Shown: piece after piece, positions 4,221-19,774 of the stretch
How the letters are laid out: the number at the start of each line of letters is the position of its first letter
Position numbering within the stretch: position 1 is the stretch's first letter
Origin: a virus
Length of the DNA: 20,109 nucleotides
Virus record (IMG/VR): IMGVR_UViG_3300001749_000016
Span: 1-20,109 of that record
Reading direction: 5' to 3' (one strand)
Notes under the pieces: generated by a model
Databases searched by the model: none
Seen by the model: the letters and a program-made list of their open reading frames with translations, nothing else
What the model was told of the DNA's origin: nothing
Program-made: the position numbers and the translations under genes

Positions 4221-4880
4221 TCAGGTTCTCCGGATCAGGCTGGAAAGGAAGGTGGCCAGCCGAGCGAGCCAACTGGTCTCTGCGGCTGGCGTGGATGGGA
4301 TAATGGGTGGCGGTGGCGTGAGGGCCGGGCGCAAGAGCGCCAGCGCCTGGTCTTCACTCAGGAGTCGAACAGGTCGGGAGAAATCGACGCGTCCCGATCG
4401 GTCCACCGCCCAGACCGGGATGGTGCCGCCCGGATAGCGACCATGGAGGAACAGATCGCGCTCCGCCTCGCGGCGTGGAATGATCGCGGCGGGCTTGCGC
4501 CATCCCATGAAGGCCTGCGCAGCCGCCTCGCGGTCGCCTGCGTTCAGATGGCGTGTCAGCTTGGCACGTGCGATACCGCCCGTGTTGTAGTGAAAGCTGA
4601 CCAGCGCATCGAATTCATGCGGTGCCAGCGGTACCATTACGGCCTGCCGCACCTCGGCCTCGCAGGTCTGAATGTCGGCGCGGAACACCCGGAATGCCTC
4701 CCGGATCGCGGCATCGAGATCGGCGGGCATCCCGCGCGGCATGCCGATCGGATCAGGCGAACCGGCGGCGGCAGTATGGCCGATGCCGAAGGTCCAGACG
4801 TTTTTCACGTCTGTATAGGGCCCGGGCACGAGGCCTTCGTGCCGGGCGAGGGCCAGAAGGCCCCGGTCAGTCATGTGCAT
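4221..4880 (-). CDS. Phage endolysin, GH24 (T4-type) lysozyme
   Basis: 219 residues. The catalytic pattern of T4-type lysozymes is present near the N-terminus: Glu15 in RHEGLVPGPYTD, Asp24, and Thr30 in WTFGIGHT, with the same spacing as T4 Glu11/Asp20/Thr26. FDALVSFHYNTG further on matches the conserved second-lobe motif. The enzyme cleaves the N-acetylmuramyl-glucosaminyl bond of peptidoglycan. There is no N-terminal signal-anchor, so export presumably depends on the holin. The last ~60 residues are Pro-rich followed by an amphipathic helix (WLARLATFLSSLIRR), an extension beyond the catalytic domain that could be a membrane-associating tail. Two starts, at 4880 and 4874, are equally plausible. 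It lies in the lysis cassette 4 bases after the preceding small membrane gene. Confidence 0.93.
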   Translation of the reverse strand: MHMTDRGLLALARHEGLVPGPYTDVKNVWTFGIGHTAAAGSPDPIGMPRGMPADLDAAIREAFRVFRADIQTCEAEVRQAVMVPLAPHEFDALVSFHYNTGGIARAKLTRHLNAGDREAAAQAFMGWRKPAAIIPRREAERDLFLHGRYPGGTIPVWAVDRSGRVDFSRPVRLLSEDQALALLRPALTPPPPIIPSTPAAETSWLARLATFLSSLIRRT

Positions 4881-5016: not shown

Positions 5017-5359
5017 CGTTATCGCCGCCTTCCGTGTGGCGCATCCGGACGAGGACGATCTCGATAAAGGCTGGTCCGAAGACGCCCACAAGATAGGCCG
5101 CCGATCCCGCAGCCCCGCCCGCAGGGATTGCCTCCGGCGGCAGGCCGAGCCACGCGGTGATGACCGCCATCGACAGGCTGCCCATCCCGGCCGCAATCAA
5201 CCCGCCGAGCAGTATGTGGCGCAGCGCGTCGCGCAGGCGCATCCTTGTTGTCAGCGCGTTTGTTGCGCCGCCCAGCGCACCCCAGGCGGCAAGGATGACG
5301 GCGGTTGACGCGGCCAGCTCGCGCAACACTGCGGCCAGAAAGCGGGTCTCTTCATTCAT
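5009..5359 (-). CDS. Phage holin (three predicted TM segments)
   Basis: 116 residues. It has a short charged N-terminus (MNEETRF), hydrophobic segments at about 12-32, 48-68 and 78-102, and a charged C-terminus (RMRHTEGGDNDA). Size and topology fit a class I holin, and the sequence looks like the LydA/phage_holin_3 type (residues AAWGALGGATNAL and LRHILLGGLIAAGMG). Holins form the inner-membrane lesion that releases or activates the endolysin; the GH24 lysozyme gene lies just downstream. The start overlaps the DUF2460 stop (ATGA), so the cassette is translationally coupled to a tail gene. Family assignment is from memory of the fold type; the holin role is well supported by context. Confidence 0.8.
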   Translation of the reverse strand: MNEETRFLAAVLRELAASTAVILAAWGALGGATNALTTRMRLRDALRHILLGGLIAAGMGSLSMAVITAWLGLPPEAIPAGGAAGSAAYLVGVFGPAFIEIVLVRMRHTEGGDNDA

Positions 5360-5982
5360 CTGCGGATCTCCAGCAGCGGGATGGATGCGATGGATCCGAG
5401 CCGTTCGATATCGAGGGTGATGTCGAGCGTGTCGGTGTCGAAGCGGACGGGCACGTCGAAGGCGAAGCCTGCGGTGATGGCCACGCCCGCGCCGGGGGCG
5501 GCGTCGAAACTTACAACGCCGGTGGCGGTGTCGACGCCCCAGCCCGACATCTGTTCGACCCCGCCCAGCGCGATACGCACGCTGTCCGCGACGGGCTTGG
5601 CGATAGCGCGGGTCCAGGCCTGCGCGCCGGAGGTGTAGTGCTTCAGCAATGCAAAACTGGTGACAATACCGTCGCTGGTGCCGATGAGCTGGTCGGTTGG
5701 GGTCACGGGTTGCGACGGCAGGTTGGATTTGTAGTCGGCCCAGTCCTTGTAGCGAAACCCGTGCAGTCGACCGTTCCGCGCCTCGAAGAAGGCGACCACG
5801 GCTGCCAGATCGTCCGCACGGCGGATGCCATAGGCCACATCATAGCGGCGGCGCGAATTGGCCCAGCTGGCGTTGCGCTCTTCATCGCCCGAAGCCAGTT
5901 CCACAATCTGCGTGCGCCGTTCGGGCCCACCGCGTGCGCCGCGACTGATGTTGTCGGGAAACCGGACCTCGTGAAACGCCAT
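5356..5982 (-). CDS. DUF2460 distal tail protein (GTA gp12-like)
   Basis: 208 residues from the ATG at 5982, which shares one base with the tape measure stop (TGATG); a GTG one codon upstream is possible but less likely. The N-terminus AFHEVRFPDNISRGARGGPER and the FFEARNGRLHGFRYKDWADYKS segment are characteristic of the DUF2460 family (TIGR02217), which in RcGTA forms the distal tail ring at the tube end. Full length for the family. In GTA-like systems the next gene is DUF2163; here the holin gene follows by ATGA overlap and DUF2163 is displaced by about 1.8 kb. Confidence 0.93.
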   Translation of the reverse strand: MAFHEVRFPDNISRGARGGPERRTQIVELASGDEERNASWANSRRRYDVAYGIRRADDLAAVVAFFEARNGRLHGFRYKDWADYKSNLPSQPVTPTDQLIGTSDGIVTSFALLKHYTSGAQAWTRAIAKPVADSVRIALGGVEQMSGWGVDTATGVVSFDAAPGAGVAITAGFAFDVPVRFDTDTLDITLDIERLGSIASIPLLEIRR

Positions 5983-8429
5983 CACATGCCCCTCCGACCG
6001 AGGGACACCGCCCGGGCAATATCCGCCGCGACCTGTGTGCGGGATTGCCGGAAGCTTTCGGCATCGCGGGCGTTGATCGTGACGGAGATATTCGAGGCTG
6101 CACTCGCCCCCTGTCCATATCCAGCAGCCTCACGACGGGAGAGGACGCGTTCACCTCGTTGCAGGATCGCCGGAACTTCGTCGGGTTTGATGCCAGCCCA
6201 GCCACCGGAATGCATGCGTGGTGCGCCTGCGAAGGCCAGCGCAGGGACCATGCGGCCCGGGCCCGGCGATCCGACCGTGCCGCCAGCATGCAAGATATCT
6301 GCGAACAACCCGCCCGCACCGCCCAGCGCGCCAGAGAGGGCGTTGGCGATGGGACCAAGGATGAACCGCCGCGCGGCCAGTTTGGCCAGATCGGCGATCA
6401 TCGACGTAACGAGGTCGCGGAAGTCCAGTTTGCCGGATTTGACGAACTCGCCCACGGCGTTCTCGGCGCTTTGGAACGCGCCAACCAATGTCTGGCCGAT
6501 ATCGCCTCCAATATCGCGCGCCTTGGCGGCATAGTCGGCGAGTGCCGCCGTCATCGCGCCCCAGCCTGTTGCCGCCTGTCCGGCACCGGCAGCAGCAGCC
6601 GCACCGGCATTGCGGGCAGCACCACCTGCGCCATCCGCTGCGGTGGTGGTGTCATTCAGCCCGGCCGCCAGCGCATCGGCAGAACTGGCGGCATCGGCCA
6701 GTGCAGCTTCCGCCTCTGATCCGGTCCCAGTCACCGCGTCACGCAACGCTTGCCAACTGGCGAGCGGTCGACCTGCGGCATCTGCCAGCATCCCCGCCGC
6801 CTCGCGATATCCATCGGCGCGGGCGCGCGCATCGTCGGCCATTGCGCCAAGGCCAAGGTCTGGCGGTTCAAGATAGGTGCGCGACAGCGCGGCGGAAAAG
6901 GCATCCGCTGCAGCCGCCCCTGCAGCCGTCGCGGCACCCTCGAAGGGGTTGCCGATCCGCGCCAGTCCCACAGGATCCAGCGTGCCGATCCGCACGCCGC
7001 CCTCACCCGTTGCCCACTCCGGCAGCAGCGCCAGCGCCGCATTCAACCCGGTGATGAAAGTGTTGATGCGGGTGACGACGCCGTTCAGCATCGCCTCGAC
7101 GCCCGAGATCAGCCCGTTCGCCGCCTGGAATGCGAAGTCACCGATGGCTCCCGGCAGACTGCCCCAGATCGCCACGGCGGCATCATAGGCCCCCCGGAAA
7201 ATCGCCGCTGTCCGGTCGCCGAAGCTGACCACGCCCGCGATGGTGCCCTCGAGCGCCGAAAGTCCGGACGCCTTCAGGCTCTCCCAACTGGCCGACATGT
7301 TGGCAAAGGCGGCATCCAGCCCCAGCTCCATTCGGGACCACACCTCCTTCGCAAGATCGCCCAGCAGCTGGAACGCCTCACCGACGCCGCCGACCTTGGT
7401 CACCAGTTGCGAGAATTGATAGACCAGCTCACCCGCACCGACGATCATCGCGCCGATGCCGGTGCGGATCAGCGCACCGCGCAGAACAACCAGTGCCGTG
7501 GCGACCCCGCGTACCGACAGGGCGGCTGCCGCCATGCCCGCAACCCAGCGCCCGGCCATGATGCCTGCGAACGTCGCGGCATAAGTGGTCAGCCGCCCGA
7601 TGTTGTCAAAGAGTGCCTTGATCGCGATGCCCACCGGCCCGGTGGTGCGCGCGACGCTGGCCAGCGCATTGGCCACGGCCTCCAGTGCCGGAGCGGCCGC
7701 AACCGCGAGTTGGTTCGAGACGCCGCGCCAGATCAGCCCCAGCCGCGAAATCGCATCATTGGTGCGTTCGATCTGGTCAGCATCCTGCTCAGAAACCACC
7801 ACCCCGAAGGCAAGCACGTCCTCGGTTGCCTGGCGCAGAGTCGCTGTATCAATCCGCGACATGGCGATGGAGCCTTCCTCGCCGAAGAGCTGCCCCGCAA
7901 CGGCGGCGCGCTCAGCCGCAGGCACGAAATCCGCGATGGCGGCGTTGATCGCGCCGACGCGCTGATCAAGCGGCAAGTCGATCAGGTCAGAGGCGGAAAG
8001 CCCGAGCCGGTCCAACGCGTCTGCCGCGGGGCCAGTCCCGGCGGCCGCCTGGCTGAGGCGGCGTGTCAGATCCTTGGTCGCCTGTTCGATCCCGGACATC
8101 GACACGCCCGCCAACTCGCCCGCGCGCTCCAGCGTCTGGATCGAGGCGACCGTCGTCCCGAGTGATTGCGCCAGCTTGGCCTGCGCATCGACGGTCTGCA
8201 GCCCGGACCTGATCATCGCTGCCCCGGCTGCGGCCAGTGCAGCCGTGGCGGCAGCGGCCGCCAGCGTGGCGCGGCGGGCAAATGCGGCGACGCGTGCATT
8301 CGCAAGATCCATCTCGCGCGACAACCGCCCGAACCCGCGCGCCCCGGCCTCACCGACGCCTTCCAGCTCGGCGCGTACCTGGCGGCCGCCTTCCGCCACG
8401 AGGCGCACGGAGACCCTTTTCTCAGCCAT
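5982..8429 (-). CDS. Tail tape measure protein (lambda-type C-terminus)
   Basis: 815 residues from the ATG at 8429, preceded by GGAAG and overlapping the end of the frameshifted chaperone frame; an in-frame ATG at 8453 is less likely. Tape measure features: Ala/Gly-rich helical sequence, hydrophobic helices (about residues 50-75 and in the middle third around 290-345), and long helices in the Ala-rich C-terminal half. The region LDFRDLVTSMIADLAKLAARR, then RMHSGGWAGIKPDEVPAILQRGERVLSRRE, resembles the C-terminal segment of lambda-family tape measures. The protein sets tail length and is ejected ahead of DNA. It is much longer than the roughly 220-residue RcGTA tape measure, so the tail should be correspondingly longer than a GTA tail. 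Largest complete gene in the window. Confidence 0.93.
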   Translation of the reverse strand: MAEKRVSVRLVAEGGRQVRAELEGVGEAGARGFGRLSREMDLANARVAAFARRATLAAAAATAALAAAGAAMIRSGLQTVDAQAKLAQSLGTTVASIQTLERAGELAGVSMSGIEQATKDLTRRLSQAAAGTGPAADALDRLGLSASDLIDLPLDQRVGAINAAIADFVPAAERAAVAGQLFGEEGSIAMSRIDTATLRQATEDVLAFGVVVSEQDADQIERTNDAISRLGLIWRGVSNQLAVAAAPALEAVANALASVARTTGPVGIAIKALFDNIGRLTTYAATFAGIMAGRWVAGMAAAALSVRGVATALVVLRGALIRTGIGAMIVGAGELVYQFSQLVTKVGGVGEAFQLLGDLAKEVWSRMELGLDAAFANMSASWESLKASGLSALEGTIAGVVSFGDRTAAIFRGAYDAAVAIWGSLPGAIGDFAFQAANGLISGVEAMLNGVVTRINTFITGLNAALALLPEWATGEGGVRIGTLDPVGLARIGNPFEGAATAAGAAAADAFSAALSRTYLEPPDLGLGAMADDARARADGYREAAGMLADAAGRPLASWQALRDAVTGTGSEAEAALADAASSADALAAGLNDTTTAADGAGGAARNAGAAAAAGAGQAATGWGAMTAALADYAAKARDIGGDIGQTLVGAFQSAENAVGEFVKSGKLDFRDLVTSMIADLAKLAARRFILGPIANALSGALGGAGGLFADILHAGGTVGSPGPGRMVPALAFAGAPRMHSGGWAGIKPDEVPAILQRGERVLSRREAAGYGQGASAASNISVTINARDAESFRQSRTQVAADIARAVSLGRRGM

Positions 8430-10055: not shown

Positions 10056-10478
10056 TCAGGCCAATGGGCCGGTGGTGGTGTAGTGCAGGACGACGGTGAT
10101 CACTGCGGCCTTGAGGGCCGCCGCGCCTTCAATGGGCAGATCCACCGAGGCCGGGGCCTCGGGTTCAACCCAATCGCAGAGACCGCCCAGCGTGCGGTCG
10201 GCTTCAAGCTCGGTGCCGATAGTGGCGATCAGGGTGTCGAAAGCCGTGGCCTGGTCATTCGGGGTTTGGACCACGACCTCCAACTCTGCGCGATGCTGGT
10301 AATGGTAGCGCAGCGGCGACATCGTGACCTCCGGCTCGCCTGGCTGGCCATCGCGCAGGATGATCAGCCCGGTTGGCGGGATCCGCTCAGGCAGCACCTC
10401 GTCGCGCAGGACGAGGGCGGCAAGCGGCTGCAGCCGCGCCTGCAGCGCGGCAAGGACCGTTTCGCGGGTGGTGGGCAA
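10056..10478 (-). CDS. Tail terminator-like minor tail protein (gpU position)
   Basis: 140 residues from a TTG start at 10478, with AGGAG at 10493-10489. The frame also stays open to another TTG at 10520, but that extension (RIWPWPQQRSQL) overlies the likely ribosome-binding site. The product begins PTTRETVLAALQARLQPL and includes LPERIPPTGLIILRDG and LRYHYQHRAELEVVVQ, features I associate with alphaproteobacterial phage proteins sitting just before the tail tube gene (sometimes mislabelled acyl-CoA transferase in databases, from memory). Size and position match lambda gpU, which caps the tail tube. Its upstream flank is not the preceding late gene but the antisense cargo gene, so its transcription must run through that region antisense. 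Confidence 0.72.
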   Translation of the reverse strand: MPTTRETVLAALQARLQPLAALVLRDEVLPERIPPTGLIILRDGQPGEPEVTMSPLRYHYQHRAELEVVVQTPNDQATAFDTLIATIGTELEADRTLGGLCDWVEPEAPASVDLPIEGAAALKAAVITVVLHYTTTGPLA

Positions 10479-10590
10479 TTCTAGTTGACTCCTCTGTTGC
10501 GGCCAGGGCCATATGCGCAAAGGAGCGGGATATTGATCGCGACATAGTGGCTTTCTTGCTTGGAAATAACGTCAGTTTAGGAGAAGATAT
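10479..10590 (+). promoter_or_regulatory. Short intergenic region upstream of the cargo gene; possible own promoter
   Basis: 112 bases between the TTG starts of the gpU-like gene (minus) and the cargo gene (plus). A TTGACT element at 10485-10490 could be a -35 box, but the best -10-like sequence downstream (CATATG, 10510-10515) is 19 bases away and poor. A strong ribosome-binding site AGGAGA (10579-10584) sits 6 bases before the TTG at 10591, which is why that TTG is chosen as the start. No terminator hairpin is seen. The promoter call is weak; the ribosome-binding site is clear. Confidence 0.35.
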
Positions 10591-11703
10591 TTGGTTAACG
10601 TCGCCATCGGTTTCTTGTCGCTTCTCATAATTCTGTGGGGTGCCTATTCGCTATTCTGTATTCTAATTCCGCTAAAGCCATTTCGTTCGCGCGGCAGGGC
10701 CGCCGGTTCATTTGGGGCTTCGGTCTTGGTTTTATTTTCGGTAGGTCTGGTTCTGTCAGCGATCGATCCTTCTCCTAAGGCGCAAATTGCTACCGAGCAA
10801 ACGGTGGCGTTGGACGAACCTGCGGCAGTCGAGCCATTGATGGAAGCTGAGGCAGACACGGCACTCACCAAGAATACGGAATTGTCGAACAATATACCGG
10901 CACCATGCGGAGACGGAGGAATTGCGTTCGGCGATGTAGTCGCGGTTGATGGCGAGTCTGAGCTCCATGAGACGCCAAGTTTGGAAGCCCCAAAGATTAG
11001 GAACGAAAAAGCGTCCCTTGCACTTGGCAAAGACCATTTCCATCAGATTGACAATTCAACGACTGTCAGGCGTCTTTGTGCTCAAAGCGATTGGACCGAG
11101 ATCCAGATAGTCACACCTGACTGGCTGACTTTTGTAAAAGGTTGGGTGCCCAACACGGCACTTAGAGAAATTGAGCTGACAGGCGATGGGGCCCGTGTGT
11201 ACGTCGAAGCGGATTTCTACTGGGATGATGATACCTCTAAATATAAGGCCCAGATCATTGCCGTAGTGAACAAGATTGCGCGTGAAAACGCAAAATGCGT
11301 TCCAATTGACCCATCCTCTGTCGCGAAATCATCTTCGCGCAGCAAGCCAAGTGATCCCGTATTCTTTGTAACGTGCGGCTCTGGTACCGACGTTTTTAAC
11401 GTGTGGTTTCGCCCAAAGGACGCCGACGCAGGTGAAGTATTTGCTGCGCGTCAGCCGCTCGCCCGGAACGCGGCTGCCGATTCTTGTGAAATGGCAGCAA
11501 AGCGGGCGGCAACGCACCCTTCGACAGTTTCGTTTTCGCGAGTCTGGGATTTAGCGTATATGCCGCATGCATCGGGGCGTGCTCGGGTCGTTTCCTCATT
11601 TACAGCTAAAAACGCCCTCAATCTCGAATTAAAGTACCGGATAGACTGCCTTTTTGACGGGGCTAATTTGATAGACGTCAATATCGCGGAGAGTTTTGAT
11701 TGA
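10591..11703 (+). CDS. Antisense cargo (moron) gene: membrane-anchored SH3-like protein of unknown function
   Basis: 370 residues from a TTG start with a strong ribosome-binding site. Two hydrophobic segments (about residues 5-28 and 42-58) separated by a basic loop (KPFRSRGR) suggest a double-pass or hairpin membrane anchor. An acidic linker (65-100) leads to an SH3b-like beta region (about 112-192: GDVVAVDGESELHETPS, WTEIQIV, FVKGWVPNTALRE). The C-terminal ~165 residues are an unrecognised domain with conserved-looking cysteines (236, 262, 299, 353) and segments FFVTCG and HPSTVSF. The gene is the only plus-strand gene inside the late operon. Hand counts of three lines in it give 42-43% GC twice and 62% once, below the phage average. 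A lysogenic-conversion or superinfection-exclusion function is plausible for a moron but is inference. Confidence 0.85.
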   Translation: MVNVAIGFLSLLIILWGAYSLFCILIPLKPFRSRGRAAGSFGASVLVLFSVGLVLSAIDPSPKAQIATEQTVALDEPAAVEPLMEAEADTALTKNTELSNNIPAPCGDGGIAFGDVVAVDGESELHETPSLEAPKIRNEKASLALGKDHFHQIDNSTTVRRLCAQSDWTEIQIVTPDWLTFVKGWVPNTALREIELTGDGARVYVEADFYWDDDTSKYKAQIIAVVNKIARENAKCVPIDPSSVAKSSSRSKPSDPVFFVTCGSGTDVFNVWFRPKDADAGEVFAARQPLARNAAADSCEMAAKRAATHPSTVSFSRVWDLAYMPHASGRARVVSSFTAKNALNLELKYRIDCLFDGANLIDVNIAESFD

Positions 11704-11768
11704 GTAGTGTGCGAAACTTTTGACGCGCATCGTTTCTCATTTGAAGTTGTGGGTAGCAATAAGCACTC

Positions 11769-12401
11769 TTACAATGATATGGGCTCCGTCCATCTTGCCA
11801 CGATCAGCCCGGGCACGCCGTCCGCTGCTCGCTCAGCATCCCGCGCCAGATCCAGCCGCTTGCGCAGTTTGACCTGCGGCACCAGCAGGAAGATCGTCAC
11901 GGTGGTCAGCCCGCGGCCTGTCTTTGATCTGCTCGCCACAGCGCGACCTTTGGTATTCAGCCGTCCCTCGGCCACCAGCAGGCTCGGTCCCCGGCGCCGA
12001 TAGACGAACCGCAGGCGCAACCCCGTGCTGCGTTCCCATTCGCCGGGAGTGATGCGGCCGCCCTTGGTGCTTTTCCCGGCGGCGCGCGTGGGGATGGCCA
12101 GCCAGAACCCATCCTTGGACCGGATCAGCGGCCCAGTGTTATGCGCACCGATTATGACTGGTGCCTTGGACCAGACGAGTGCCGCTGCGTTCAGGCTGTT
12201 GCTTGATTTCGGAAAGGTCTGACTGCGGATCGAATTTGCCAGTCGTCGGCCCAGACCAGCGCCTGTGATCTGCGCCCGCCAGTCGGATTTCAAGCCGCTG
12301 CCCGCCTCGCGCATGGCGGCCGACACTGCTTTTTCCCCAGCGGCGATTTCTGCCTGCATCATGGCGACGAGGTCTGGATCGAACGCAATCTTCAGTTTCA
12401 T
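11769..12401 (-). CDS. DUF6441-like neck/minor tail protein (gpZ position)
   Basis: 210 residues, starting at an ATG that overlaps the upstream gene's TGA (ATGA). N-terminus MKLKIAFDPDLVAMMQAEIAAGEKAVSAAMREAGSGLKSDWR and the central segments GPLIRSKDGFWLAIPT and LRFVYRRRGPSLLVAEG fit the DUF6441 family seen in head-tail connection regions of alphaproteobacterial phages; it is basic and helical, as in HK97 gp10/lambda gpZ-type tail-completion proteins. The last codons (EPISL, then TAA) are AT-richer than the rest, so the extreme C-terminus may have been altered where the cargo gene was inserted. Normally the gpU-like gene would follow directly; here 1.3 kb of cargo separates them. Confidence 0.72.
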   Translation of the reverse strand: MKLKIAFDPDLVAMMQAEIAAGEKAVSAAMREAGSGLKSDWRAQITGAGLGRRLANSIRSQTFPKSSNSLNAAALVWSKAPVIIGAHNTGPLIRSKDGFWLAIPTRAAGKSTKGGRITPGEWERSTGLRLRFVYRRRGPSLLVAEGRLNTKGRAVASRSKTGRGLTTVTIFLLVPQVKLRKRLDLARDAERAADGVPGLIVARWTEPISL

Positions 12402-17244: not shown

Positions 17245-19290
17245 TCAATCCCTCATGAAGTTCGGTGTGTAGGCCCGGCGTTTGCGCCGTGGCGTCGTTG
17301 GTGTTCCCGCCTTGGGAGGGGCGGGTGCTGTCTGTTCGGTCGGTGCCGCCTGCTGAGGTGCTGGGCGGGTTTCCACCCCAGCCTGCGCTTCCAATCTGCG
17401 CCATGTCGCCTCATCCCAGCGATCCGCGCCCATGATCCACGCGGCCGCGCGGGCATAGACTCGGCAGTCCAGCGCCTCGTTCCTCTCTCGCATCTTCTGC
17501 CATTCGGGGTGGGCGTAACCGCGCTTGTTGCGCACCGTGACCAGCTGTTCGGCCACCAGCTGCTTGAGCCATTCGGTGTCGATCCAGTCGGGCAGATGCA
17601 CGGTGCCAGGGGCGTCGAGCACCCCAAGCGAACGGTCTTCATCCGAGGGCCGCTCCAGCCGCAGGTAGCGATACGTCTCGGTCTTGAACGTCGCCGTTGC
17701 CACAGACCAGAGCCGTGCGCCCCGGCGCAGACGTTTGCCGCCAATGGTTGCGTCGACAAAGGTCGGGCCCGACACCGGCGTCGCGCGGTTAAAGCCCTCA
17801 AGGCCTTTGACGGGTGCGACCTGATCAAATCCCTGCGCTCGCGCCCAAGCATAAACGGCGGCGGCCTCATAGCCGGTGTCGATGGCCAGCTTGCCGATCA
17901 CCATTACAGCGCCGTTCGCGCAGACCCATGTGCGCCCCAAGAGGGCGGTCAGCTTGTCCCAGCAGGCCGGATCGTCTGGACCACCGGCAATGACGATGTG
18001 ATCGACGAGCCAGCTTGTCCTGTCCCGACCCCAGGCCCAGACATCGATCTCGATCCGGTCTTTCTGCACATCGACGCCAGCGGTCAGGAACAGACCGCCT
18101 GCCGGGATCTGCGCGCCAGCGTAAGCCTCGCGTCGCTCTGCCAGCCGCTGCCATTCCGGCGCATCGCCAGACTCGACCCATGTCTCGCCCAGCAGGGTGT
18201 TGCGGGCCGCGCGCAGCATCTCCTCCGAGCCTTGCGCCGCCAGCCAGTCCCGCGCGATCTGCTGCCAGCTTTTCCAGCCCAGCGGCGAATAGAGCGCCGA
18301 GAGGTGGAAGCCGGTGGAATGCGGGTCGGCGGACACAGCCGTCGCTCGCCACTCACCGCACTCCAGCATCTGCGTTTTGTGGTGCTCTGCGATAGGCTTC
18401 TCGCAGCCCTCGCAATGATAGGCAGCGGTATCGGGCCGTCCCTTGTCCCAGCGCAGCCGTTCAAACCGCAACCACTGCATCGCGCTGCAGTGTGGACAGG
18501 GCACAAAGTACCGGCGCTGATCGCTGGCCTCGAACTCCCTTTCAATGCGCGACAATCCCCGGATCGTGGGGGTCGAGACCATGAACACCTTGCGCCGGTG
18601 CGAGAAAGTCGTCGTCCGTGCTTCGGCCAGAGTGACAGGATCGCCTTCCTCGTCGGCCGAGGCCGGATAGGCGTCGACCTCGTCGAGGAAGATGTAGCGC
18701 GCGGGCATGGACCGCAGGCCAGTGGCCGAATTGGCACCGGTCAGAACCAAGATACCGCCCGGAAACTCCTTGGACAGCATCGAATTGCCCGCATCACGCG
18801 ACCGGGCAGGCTGTACCCGTTCCTTCAGCGCCGGACTGTCCTCGATCAGCGGGTCGATCCGCCCGCGCGAGGTGCGTTTCGCCATCTCCACCGTCGGCAG
18901 CACCGTCAGCATCGGACCCGGCGCGTGGTGGATGACAAAGCCGATCCAGTTGTTGCCCGCCTCGGTCGCGCCGACCTGTGCGGCCTTCATGAAGCTGATG
19001 CGCTGCGCCGGGTGGCGGGGCGACAGCGCATCCATGATCTCGCGCAGGTAGGGCGTGCGGGCGGTGCGGTATTGCCCGGGTTCGGCGCTGGCCCGCGACG
19101 ACAGCTTGCGATGCTGATCTGCCCATTCCGACACCGTCAGGTCCGGATCTGGGCGCATGCCGCGACGCCAGGTCCGCAGGATATCCTCGGCCCCGTCAAA
19201 GGCGAGATCGAGGTCTGCGGTCAGGTCATGGTCACCCTCATCCAAGCGAGACCTTGAGATCGGCAAGGGCATCGAGTTGCGCTCTGACAT
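17245..19290 (-). CDS. Terminase large subunit (GpA family)
   Basis: 681 residues (lambda gpA 641). The ATPase half has a deviant Walker A-like KAAQVGATE (102-110), Walker B YIFLDEVD (199-206) and coupling motif STPT (239-242). A zinc-ribbon-like insert has CPHC (265-268) and CEGC (293-296). The nuclease half opens with FLTAGVDVQKDRIEI, where Asp407 is a candidate metal ligand. It cuts concatemers and translocates DNA into the prohead. The chosen ATG overlaps the small subunit gene by 53 bases and is preceded by GGAAA; a TTG near 19245 is an alternative. The C-terminus is Pro/Ala-rich and basic. Confidence 0.95.
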   Translation of the reverse strand: MSERNSMPLPISRSRLDEGDHDLTADLDLAFDGAEDILRTWRRGMRPDPDLTVSEWADQHRKLSSRASAEPGQYRTARTPYLREIMDALSPRHPAQRISFMKAAQVGATEAGNNWIGFVIHHAPGPMLTVLPTVEMAKRTSRGRIDPLIEDSPALKERVQPARSRDAGNSMLSKEFPGGILVLTGANSATGLRSMPARYIFLDEVDAYPASADEEGDPVTLAEARTTTFSHRRKVFMVSTPTIRGLSRIEREFEASDQRRYFVPCPHCSAMQWLRFERLRWDKGRPDTAAYHCEGCEKPIAEHHKTQMLECGEWRATAVSADPHSTGFHLSALYSPLGWKSWQQIARDWLAAQGSEEMLRAARNTLLGETWVESGDAPEWQRLAERREAYAGAQIPAGGLFLTAGVDVQKDRIEIDVWAWGRDRTSWLVDHIVIAGGPDDPACWDKLTALLGRTWVCANGAVMVIGKLAIDTGYEAAAVYAWARAQGFDQVAPVKGLEGFNRATPVSGPTFVDATIGGKRLRRGARLWSVATATFKTETYRYLRLERPSDEDRSLGVLDAPGTVHLPDWIDTEWLKQLVAEQLVTVRNKRGYAHPEWQKMRERNEALDCRVYARAAAWIMGADRWDEATWRRLEAQAGVETRPAPQQAAPTEQTAPAPPKAGTPTTPRRKRRAYTPNFMRD

Positions 19291-19774
19291 GGGTTTCCAG
19301 CACCCTCTGCAGGATCGCGGCCTCGATCATCACCGGTGAGCCGGATTGCTTTTCCACCTCCGATGCCACTTCAGCTGCCATCAGCGCTGCCACGCGGGAT
19401 GGCCATGTGACCCACGTATCGCGTTCCTGACGTGCCAAACGAAACACCAGCGTCTCGGCGCGCGCCCGATCGACCAGCGTGCCCTTCTTCTTCTGGATTG
19501 CCAGCTGGCGTTCCTGCGCCTGATAGACGGTCAGCGCAGTGCGGGCCTTCAGGTATGACGAGCTGTCAGCTGGACCGCTGAATGCGGTATCGCCGCCAGT
19601 GCTGCGCCGCTTCTGGTCCGGATCCGTCATCTCCGCCCGGCGCACATCGGACGCGGCGGCCTTGATCGACCCGTCCTTGTAGACCACCAGCCGACCGGCC
19701 TTGCGCGCCTTCTGGATCGCCCCACGCGACAGACCGGAATGGGTGGAGTATTCGCGTTCGGACATACCTTCCAT
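19238..19774 (-). CDS. Terminase small subunit (Nu1-like DNA recognition)
   Basis: 178 residues (lambda Nu1 181); an alternative ATG at 19765 would give 175. The N-terminus has a winged-helix/HTH-like region (SEREYSTHSGLSRGAIQKARKAGRLVVYKDGSIKAAASDVRR) for cos/pac site binding, then a flexible Ser/Gly linker, then a helical domain (SYLKARTALTVYQAQERQLAIQKKKGTLVDRARAETLVFR) characteristic of small terminase subunits. It is the first gene of the leftward late operon, next to the divergent intergenic region. The cos/pac site it binds should lie close by, but I could not locate it. Confidence 0.87.
   Translation of the reverse strand: MEGMSEREYSTHSGLSRGAIQKARKAGRLVVYKDGSIKAAASDVRRAEMTDPDQKRRSTGGDTAFSGPADSSSYLKARTALTVYQAQERQLAIQKKKGTLVDRARAETLVFRLARQERDTWVTWPSRVAALMAAEVASEVEKQSGSPVMIEAAILQRVLETHVRAQLDALADLKVSLG

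Follow-up and report, generated by a model that had tools for sequence, protein, structure and literature searches.

Lambdoid phages carry morons, which are autonomous genes of foreign composition that lie between late genes and are missing from the same place in relatives. These genes are reportedly the subject of a review by Cumby et al. from 2012, which is cited in PMC4148982. In the Pectobacterium phage-plasmid Drgb1, a Shedu-like gene annotated as a defence gene is located inside the tail operon, on the opposite strand and between tail genes (L223:19261-20151, corresponding to NZ_KP942676.1 34260-35150). Small loci of high turnover, located between conserved genes, have been described in P2 phages and P4 satellites (Rousset et al. 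2022, PMC9122126). These loci measure about 1-5 kb, adjoin cos or sit between the repressor and integrase genes, and contain genes for reverse transcriptases and other defence systems alongside unknown genes; more such loci are predicted to exist in other prophages (PMC9122126). Here, we describe a variable-cargo slot between the DUF6441 gene and the tail-terminator gene in the late operon of a family of alphaproteobacterial prophages. The stretch of DNA analysed, hereafter referred to as the window, is a whole IMG/VR record of 20,109 bases. The gene that occupies the slot in the window has the traits of a moron, namely atypical composition, a location between late genes and absence from relatives; unlike the case of the lambdoid morons, all 114 distinct close relatives compared have an insert at this one junction. 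The locus resembles that of Drgb1 in having a gene on the opposite strand inside late genes, but the Drgb1 case concerns another phage and another junction, flanked by genes for tail assembly and for the tail fibre, and it is a single one. With the P2 and P4 hotspots (PMC9122126), the slot shares the character of a small variable locus between two conserved phage genes (0.3-3.2 kb here). In contrast to them, it splits two overlapping late head-tail genes in an alphaproteobacterial prophage family, and it is known here from sequence alone. A literature search on prophage hotspots, anti-phage defence, morons and DUF6441, made mostly through listings and including a term search of PMC11409702, returned no report of a slot between DUF6441 and the tail terminator and no papers on DUF6441. 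The terms 'hotspot', 'moron', 'defense' and 'cargo' are absent from PMC8224337. The kind of locus is known from P2 and P4, and its site in an alphaproteobacterial head-tail operon seems to be undescribed.

The window is a late-gene fragment on the minus strand. Its genes are arranged in the order terminase small subunit (19238-19774), portal, protease, decoration, capsid, attachment, DUF6441, tail terminator, tube, chaperone, tape measure and tail genes. The tail region past the tape measure includes an endolysin-like gene (phrog_7, 4221-4880, minus strand) and a glycoside hydrolase-like gene (phrog_2913, 5356-5985, minus strand). A gene-transfer-agent origin was considered and set aside in view of the gene content known from such agents. 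The sole plus-strand break in the late operon is the cargo gene at 10591-11703, which encodes 370 amino acids, starts with TTG and has a ribosome-binding site, AGGAG, at 10579-10583, 7 nt 5' of the start codon. This agrees with the first-pass annotation, which had described a lone plus-strand gene with its own ribosome-binding site and a non-ATG start. The reading frame is a real gene, since full-length relatives, with identities of 55% and 56%, are found in two other genomes. The upstream anchor in the late operon is the DUF6441 gene (11769-12401, minus strand; PF20039, E 4.6e-46), and the downstream anchor is the tail-terminator gene (10056-10478, minus strand; phrog_4204, E 9.7e-43), which has its own ribosome-binding site. 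The start of the tail terminator is most likely the TTG at 10478, since nearly all sister genes start at this place with ATG, GTG or TTG directly before CCCACC or a sequence close to it. With this start, the borders of the slot, from the DUF6441 stop to the tail-terminator start, are exact at 10479-11768, and the same segment is marked by a drop in GC and by homologous intervals in relatives. The GC content of the slot is 50.8% versus 65.3% in the rest of the window, where the lowest value of any other 1290-bp stretch is 61.1%. At third positions, GC amounts to 51.5% in the cargo gene and to 73-84% in nine late genes used for comparison, and the visibly lower GC noticed at first sight is thus borne out.

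The relatives of the slot were collected from viral contigs as 157 loci (L019-L175), which came from 80 + 80 rows for the two flanking genes, with three loci in both. This sample represents the most similar relatives of the flanking genes, and several contigs are present twice. Both anchors were found in 145 of the 157 loci, 12 loci with one anchor missing were dropped, and merging of identical slots left 114, the window included. Every one of these 114 distinct slots is filled, so that two conserved anchors enclose a variable interval. The inserts have sizes of 342-3229 bp with a median of 1.13 kb, which agrees with the size of about 1-5 kb expected of a hotspot, the small ones being below 1 kb. 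The GC content of the insert is below that of its flanks in 114/114 slots, with a mean drop of 12.8 points. Neighbouring junctions in the same loci rarely hold 200 bp or more: this was seen for capsid-attachment in 3/83, for attachment-DUF6441 in 1/102 and for terminator-tube in 8/108. The slot is therefore specific to one junction. Among the sampled loci, the cargo gene of the window was matched only in the window itself and in its own copy, L001, and it is absent from the other 113 distinct slots. The idea that every relative might carry the gene at this position, at a matching GC content, is therefore at odds with the comparison, and the foreign, lower-GC cargo proposed in the first-pass annotation holds, with exact borders. 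In the comparison with sister prophages, which the annotation had suggested, the nearest relative of the window by flank DNA (L170, 86.7%) has an unrelated gene of 312 amino acids in the same place. What did not hold is a single insertion event, given that the slot is filled in all distinct relatives with ever-changing cargo.

An independent sample consisted of 295 genomes from the family of the Defluviimonas genome, in which DUF6441 was matched in 81 and the terminator in 80. Pairs of the two genes were formed from 128 DUF6441 rows and 118 terminator rows, with short fragments left out and three identical copies in G273 counted. This gave 118 pairs on the same contig, of which 99 are filled (at least 320 bp) and 19 are empty (less than 100 bp), and the inserts reach 5.4 kb. 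Occupancy follows the relatedness to the window: 93 of 98 pairs are filled when the DUF6441 identity is at least 70%, versus 6 of 20 below this value. In the empty sites of five genomes (L208-L212) and of the phages RcKemmy and Sc-Yong805-1, the DUF6441 and terminator genes overlap by 4-7 nt according to an extrapolated alignment, with stop and start codons having bases in common. Thus, the statement that the two flanking genes are normally adjacent stands for distant relatives such as these phages and fails for close ones, in which 93/98 pairs are at least 320 bp apart. The simplest reading is that the overlap of the two genes by a few bases is probably the ancestral state, and that the junction would have been opened in the nearer clade, the close relatives of the window phage, where one or a few foreign genes of lower GC were inserted. 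In one of the genomes with an empty main slot, L209, extra DNA of 536 and 825 bp is found at the attachment-DUF6441 and terminator-tube junctions, respectively, and part of the 825 bp may belong to a longer tube protein. In the plasmid pRA03 (L217:6001-11204), a prophage of the same family ends directly after DUF6441 and is followed by a recombinase gene and repABC; this break is another rearrangement at the junction of the slot.

The contents of the slot change rapidly. Cargo reading frames were called by length and not with a gene finder, which makes their strands and counts approximate. The 148 frames of at least 100 amino acids fall into 102 BLASTP clusters. When only the longest cargo of each slot is considered, the 114 slots hold 76 unrelated clusters, of which 58 are singletons, and the Chao1 estimate for these main-cargo clusters is about 214. 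Cargo is common to both slots in 4/4 pairs with flank identity of at least 95% and in 1/7 pairs at 90-95%; with 6/7 pairs in the latter range differing in cargo, turnover is above that of the flanks, as in a hotspot. A search of the slot edges for a recombination signal gave no motif that is general across slots, and for this reason we claim no integron- or att-like mechanism. Some stretches of edge sequence recur in several slots whose cargo differs, for instance GTCTGC-AATGCGGAC after DUF6441 and GGTATTACCTTTAGCA before the terminator. Short edge sequences in common on both sides, around different cargo, were seen in L055, L060, L062, L070, L097, L099, L109 and L115. Such common edges hint that cassettes could be exchanged by recombination within them, and we infer that cargo is replaced faster than the flanks probably through recombination in the conserved flanks or in these edges.

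Known anti-phage systems are present among the cargo, as a minority of the 95 cluster representatives scanned out of 102. Two were individually confirmed: the reverse transcriptase DRT9, which L145 matches with E 4.7e-162 over 506 residues, and PD-Lambda-2_B, which is matched in L083 with E 1.2e-35. Other matches, with one member each, are to a PvuRts1I-like or methyl-directed nuclease, Abi_C, HipA, QueC, mad2, NERD/PglW, HNH and a CdiA-type C-terminal domain. The non-defence matches, also of one member each, comprise LysR and HxlR regulators, AI-2E and TauE transporters, a globin, a dehydrogenase, a polysaccharide lyase and an integrase core. For the greater part of the cargo, a defence function is not recognisable, and in the cargo set A2 (n=50) only 6 PADLOC models had a match, with one member each. 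Because defence matches stand beside regulators, transporters and enzymes, the slot is best described from its sequences as a mixed cargo site with defence among its contents, and not as a pure defence island. With 76 main-cargo clusters (Chao1 about 214) that are mostly without recognised function, it provides a ready source of candidate genes for lysogenic conversion and defence in the Rhodobacterales, where few such genes are known. The two conserved flanking genes can serve as anchors for PCR or for searches.

The orientation of the cargo is variable as well. In 70/114 slots, the longest cargo runs against the direction of the late operon (antisense), and in 44/114 it runs in sense; when counted by cluster, the numbers are 49/76 and 27/76 (binomial p 0.015), and no cluster was found in both orientations. 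The antisense orientation is thus favoured yet optional, and silencing by the late transcript, which the first-pass annotation had put forward as the regulatory logic, cannot be a general principle. In the window, a scan for one type of promoter found no sigma-70-like promoter on the plus strand between 10400 and 11850, and no terminator-like site was found on the plus strand 3' of the cargo stop. The slot poses the question of how tail-gene expression is kept when foreign and often reversed genes are located between late genes that normally overlap.

The occupant in the window is predicted to be a membrane-anchored envelope protein. Its structure was modelled with a mean pLDDT of 76.9 and can be described as composed of an anchor, a linker and two domains. 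The anchor (residues 2-57; 10594-10761, plus strand) consists of two hydrophobic helices, at residues 2-25 and 34-57 in the model, where the pLDDT is only about 56-79; the hydropathy peaks are at residues 8 and 40. The helices are connected by a basic loop, KPFRSRGR, and according to the positive-inside rule the rest of the protein, including the SH3-like and C-terminal domains, would be outside the cytoplasm because this loop is basic. A linker that is disordered in the model (residues 58-105) leads to a small barrel (residues 107-196; 10909-11178, plus strand). In the predicted model, this barrel has the SH3 fold and aligned to SH3 domains with Z-scores of 8.3-9.2 over 62-70 residues and root mean square deviations of 1.6-4.2, the best alignments being to SH3 domains of bacterial envelope proteins and of an endolysin. 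Since no Pfam family, SH3 included, was matched at E 0.1, the domain is named SH3-like only. The model supports the two N-terminal helices and the SH3-like domain that had been read from the letters.

The C-terminal domain (residues 204-368; 11200-11694, plus strand) has an alpha/beta structure, and its Cys236, Cys262, Cys299 and Cys353 are invariant in 9/9 aligned relatives. Together with Cys106 and Cys163, which by inspection are kept in L002, L003, L007 and the temperate Pseudomonas phage VW-6S, there are six cysteines after the anchor, conserved as pairs in these four relatives, a number that would fit three disulfides. The second half of the domain (residues 291-368) shows a helix-on-sheet arrangement that resembles those of cystatin and NTF2, with best Z-scores of 7.2-7.4 over 72-77 residues; these values are at the level of a common arrangement, and the likeness may reflect only this. 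Residues 210-364 match phrog_29597 with E 5.7e-8. The occupant is similar to this and related unnamed PHROGs in its C-terminal domain and differs from phrog_29597 by the added N-terminal helices and SH3-like domain. A search of this domain, which had been recommended at the outset, led to relatives in several prophages and phages. The protein gave no usable match in Pfam, NCBIfam or PADLOC, and a Foldseek search against the PDB gave none at E 0.001 or better. Weak matches to a pyruvate dehydrogenase model (E 0.092) and, in the search of solved structures, to ribosomal protein L9 (E 0.25) were judged to be due to chance.

Full-length relatives of the occupant are found outside tail operons, in the Defluviimonas genome (L002, 55% identity) and in Pseudogemmobacter bohemicus (L003, 56% identity). 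The former has an integrase and a reverse-transcriptase gene as neighbours, the latter a serine-type recombinase and a DUF559 nuclease. A direct search of viral contigs with the gene found none outside the window, and when viral contigs were scanned with the relatives, L007 and L008 were the only matches. Among the 295 family genomes, five matched a four-row profile, two of them in the N-terminal part only, and two matched the C-terminal domain. Beyond L002 and L003, relatives in 6/8 of the sources tested extend by sequence into the C-terminal domain, and this domain occurs in a Neisseria prophage, a Helicobacter prophage, a Burkholderia phage, a Pectobacterium phage-plasmid and phage VW-6S. 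The VW-6S relative has the SH3-like and C-terminal domains and a lipobox, and its gene, in the sense orientation, has tail genes on one side and the tape measure gene on the other. Signal-peptide-like starts were noticed by eye in L006 and L007, and a lipobox in VW-6S and in an unannotated frame of Bcep176; L004 is also among the relatives with a signal peptide or lipobox. The Bcep176 frame (L005, plus strand, about 6001-6207) encodes a small protein that has a lipobox and the second half of the C-terminal domain, and it is antisense to the annotated gp24-gp26. In L008 (5194-7066), judged by eye, a C-terminal-domain relative is located right behind a repressor-like gene and is followed by a secreted nuclease-like gene and then an integrase, an arrangement that is a possible envelope exclusion operon.

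Taken together, the reading that we favour is that of a hotspot slot of Rhodobacterales-type prophages, whose occupant in the window is an envelope exclusion protein made in the lysogen; we assign a probability of roughly 0.7 to this reading as a whole. The slot is a variable-cargo (moron/defence) hotspot of prophages, as evidenced by its location, occupancy, turnover, composition and some defence genes. The occupant would be translated independently and, by prediction, consists of two membrane helices, the SH3-like domain and the disulfide-type domain, the latter two outside the cytoplasm. Its likeliest role would be to be made by the prophage in the lysogen and to guard the envelope against other phages by superinfection exclusion. 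This role, suggested by the slot location, the membrane anchor, the disulfide-type domain and the company of the relatives, is tentative, with a chance slightly below even; against it stand the missing PADLOC, Pfam and NCBIfam matches of the protein, the plus strand on which the scan recognised no promoter, and the VW-6S relative beside the tape measure gene, which would suit a virion-related role too. A bolder version is doubtful, namely that the slot is dedicated to the exchange of defence genes in a large prophage family, with an estimated pool of more than 200 cargo families that are mostly unrecognised, and that the occupant is the first of a new class of anti-phage proteins acting at the envelope, whose anchored SH3-like domain, together with a disulfide-linked domain of the cystatin/NTF2-like type, would block the tail or incoming DNA in the periplasm. 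Ranking next after the exclusion role for the occupant is a rather unlikely function as a general lysogenic-conversion gene, in a slot as described, that would serve the host in envelope stress or in surface or peptidoglycan maintenance. A host fitness gene is conceivable because many cargoes, the regulators, transporters and enzymes listed above and QueC included, resemble such genes, and the best alignments of the SH3-like domain are to domains from cell-wall proteins; however, proteins related to the C-terminal domain are found mainly in prophages and phage-plasmids, and the gene, with 5/295 profile and 2/295 C-terminal-domain matches, is rare in a way unlike a housekeeping envelope gene.

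The remaining explanations are further from the observations. That the junction is merely a tolerant boundary of the head and tail modules, where anything accumulates with no selection for cargo, would agree with cargo that is very mixed and often unrecognisable. This is improbable in view of the 93/98 close pairs that are occupied, the long intact reading frames, the known defence genes in slots and the far fewer inserts at neighbouring junctions. The VW-6S arrangement is the sole fact that favours an accessory virion or tail-assembly factor, inverted in the window by chance; the gene lies on the strand opposite to the late operon with foreign composition, is missing from 113/113 other slots and has relatives, L002 and L003, that are not in tail operons, which makes such a factor quite improbable. 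Hardly any weight is left for a one-off insertion in the window phage with antisense silencing as its logic. The window alone shows exactly such a picture, and antisense cargo is indeed commoner (49 versus 27 main-cargo clusters), but the one-off part is already contradicted by the 114/114 filled relatives, and the 44/114 longest cargo frames in sense speak against the silencing. For the favoured reading, the recombination route, the lysogen expression, the extracytoplasmic location and the protective role remain putative.

The two-helix anchor of the occupant, with a KPFR(S/T)R loop, is also found in the same bacterial family on otherwise unrelated proteins (L017:1432-1788 and L018:769-1809, both on the minus strand). 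A truncated copy of the gene, which comprises the first 146 positions followed by a stop, adjoins endolysin-like genes in L016 (1489-1938, plus strand).
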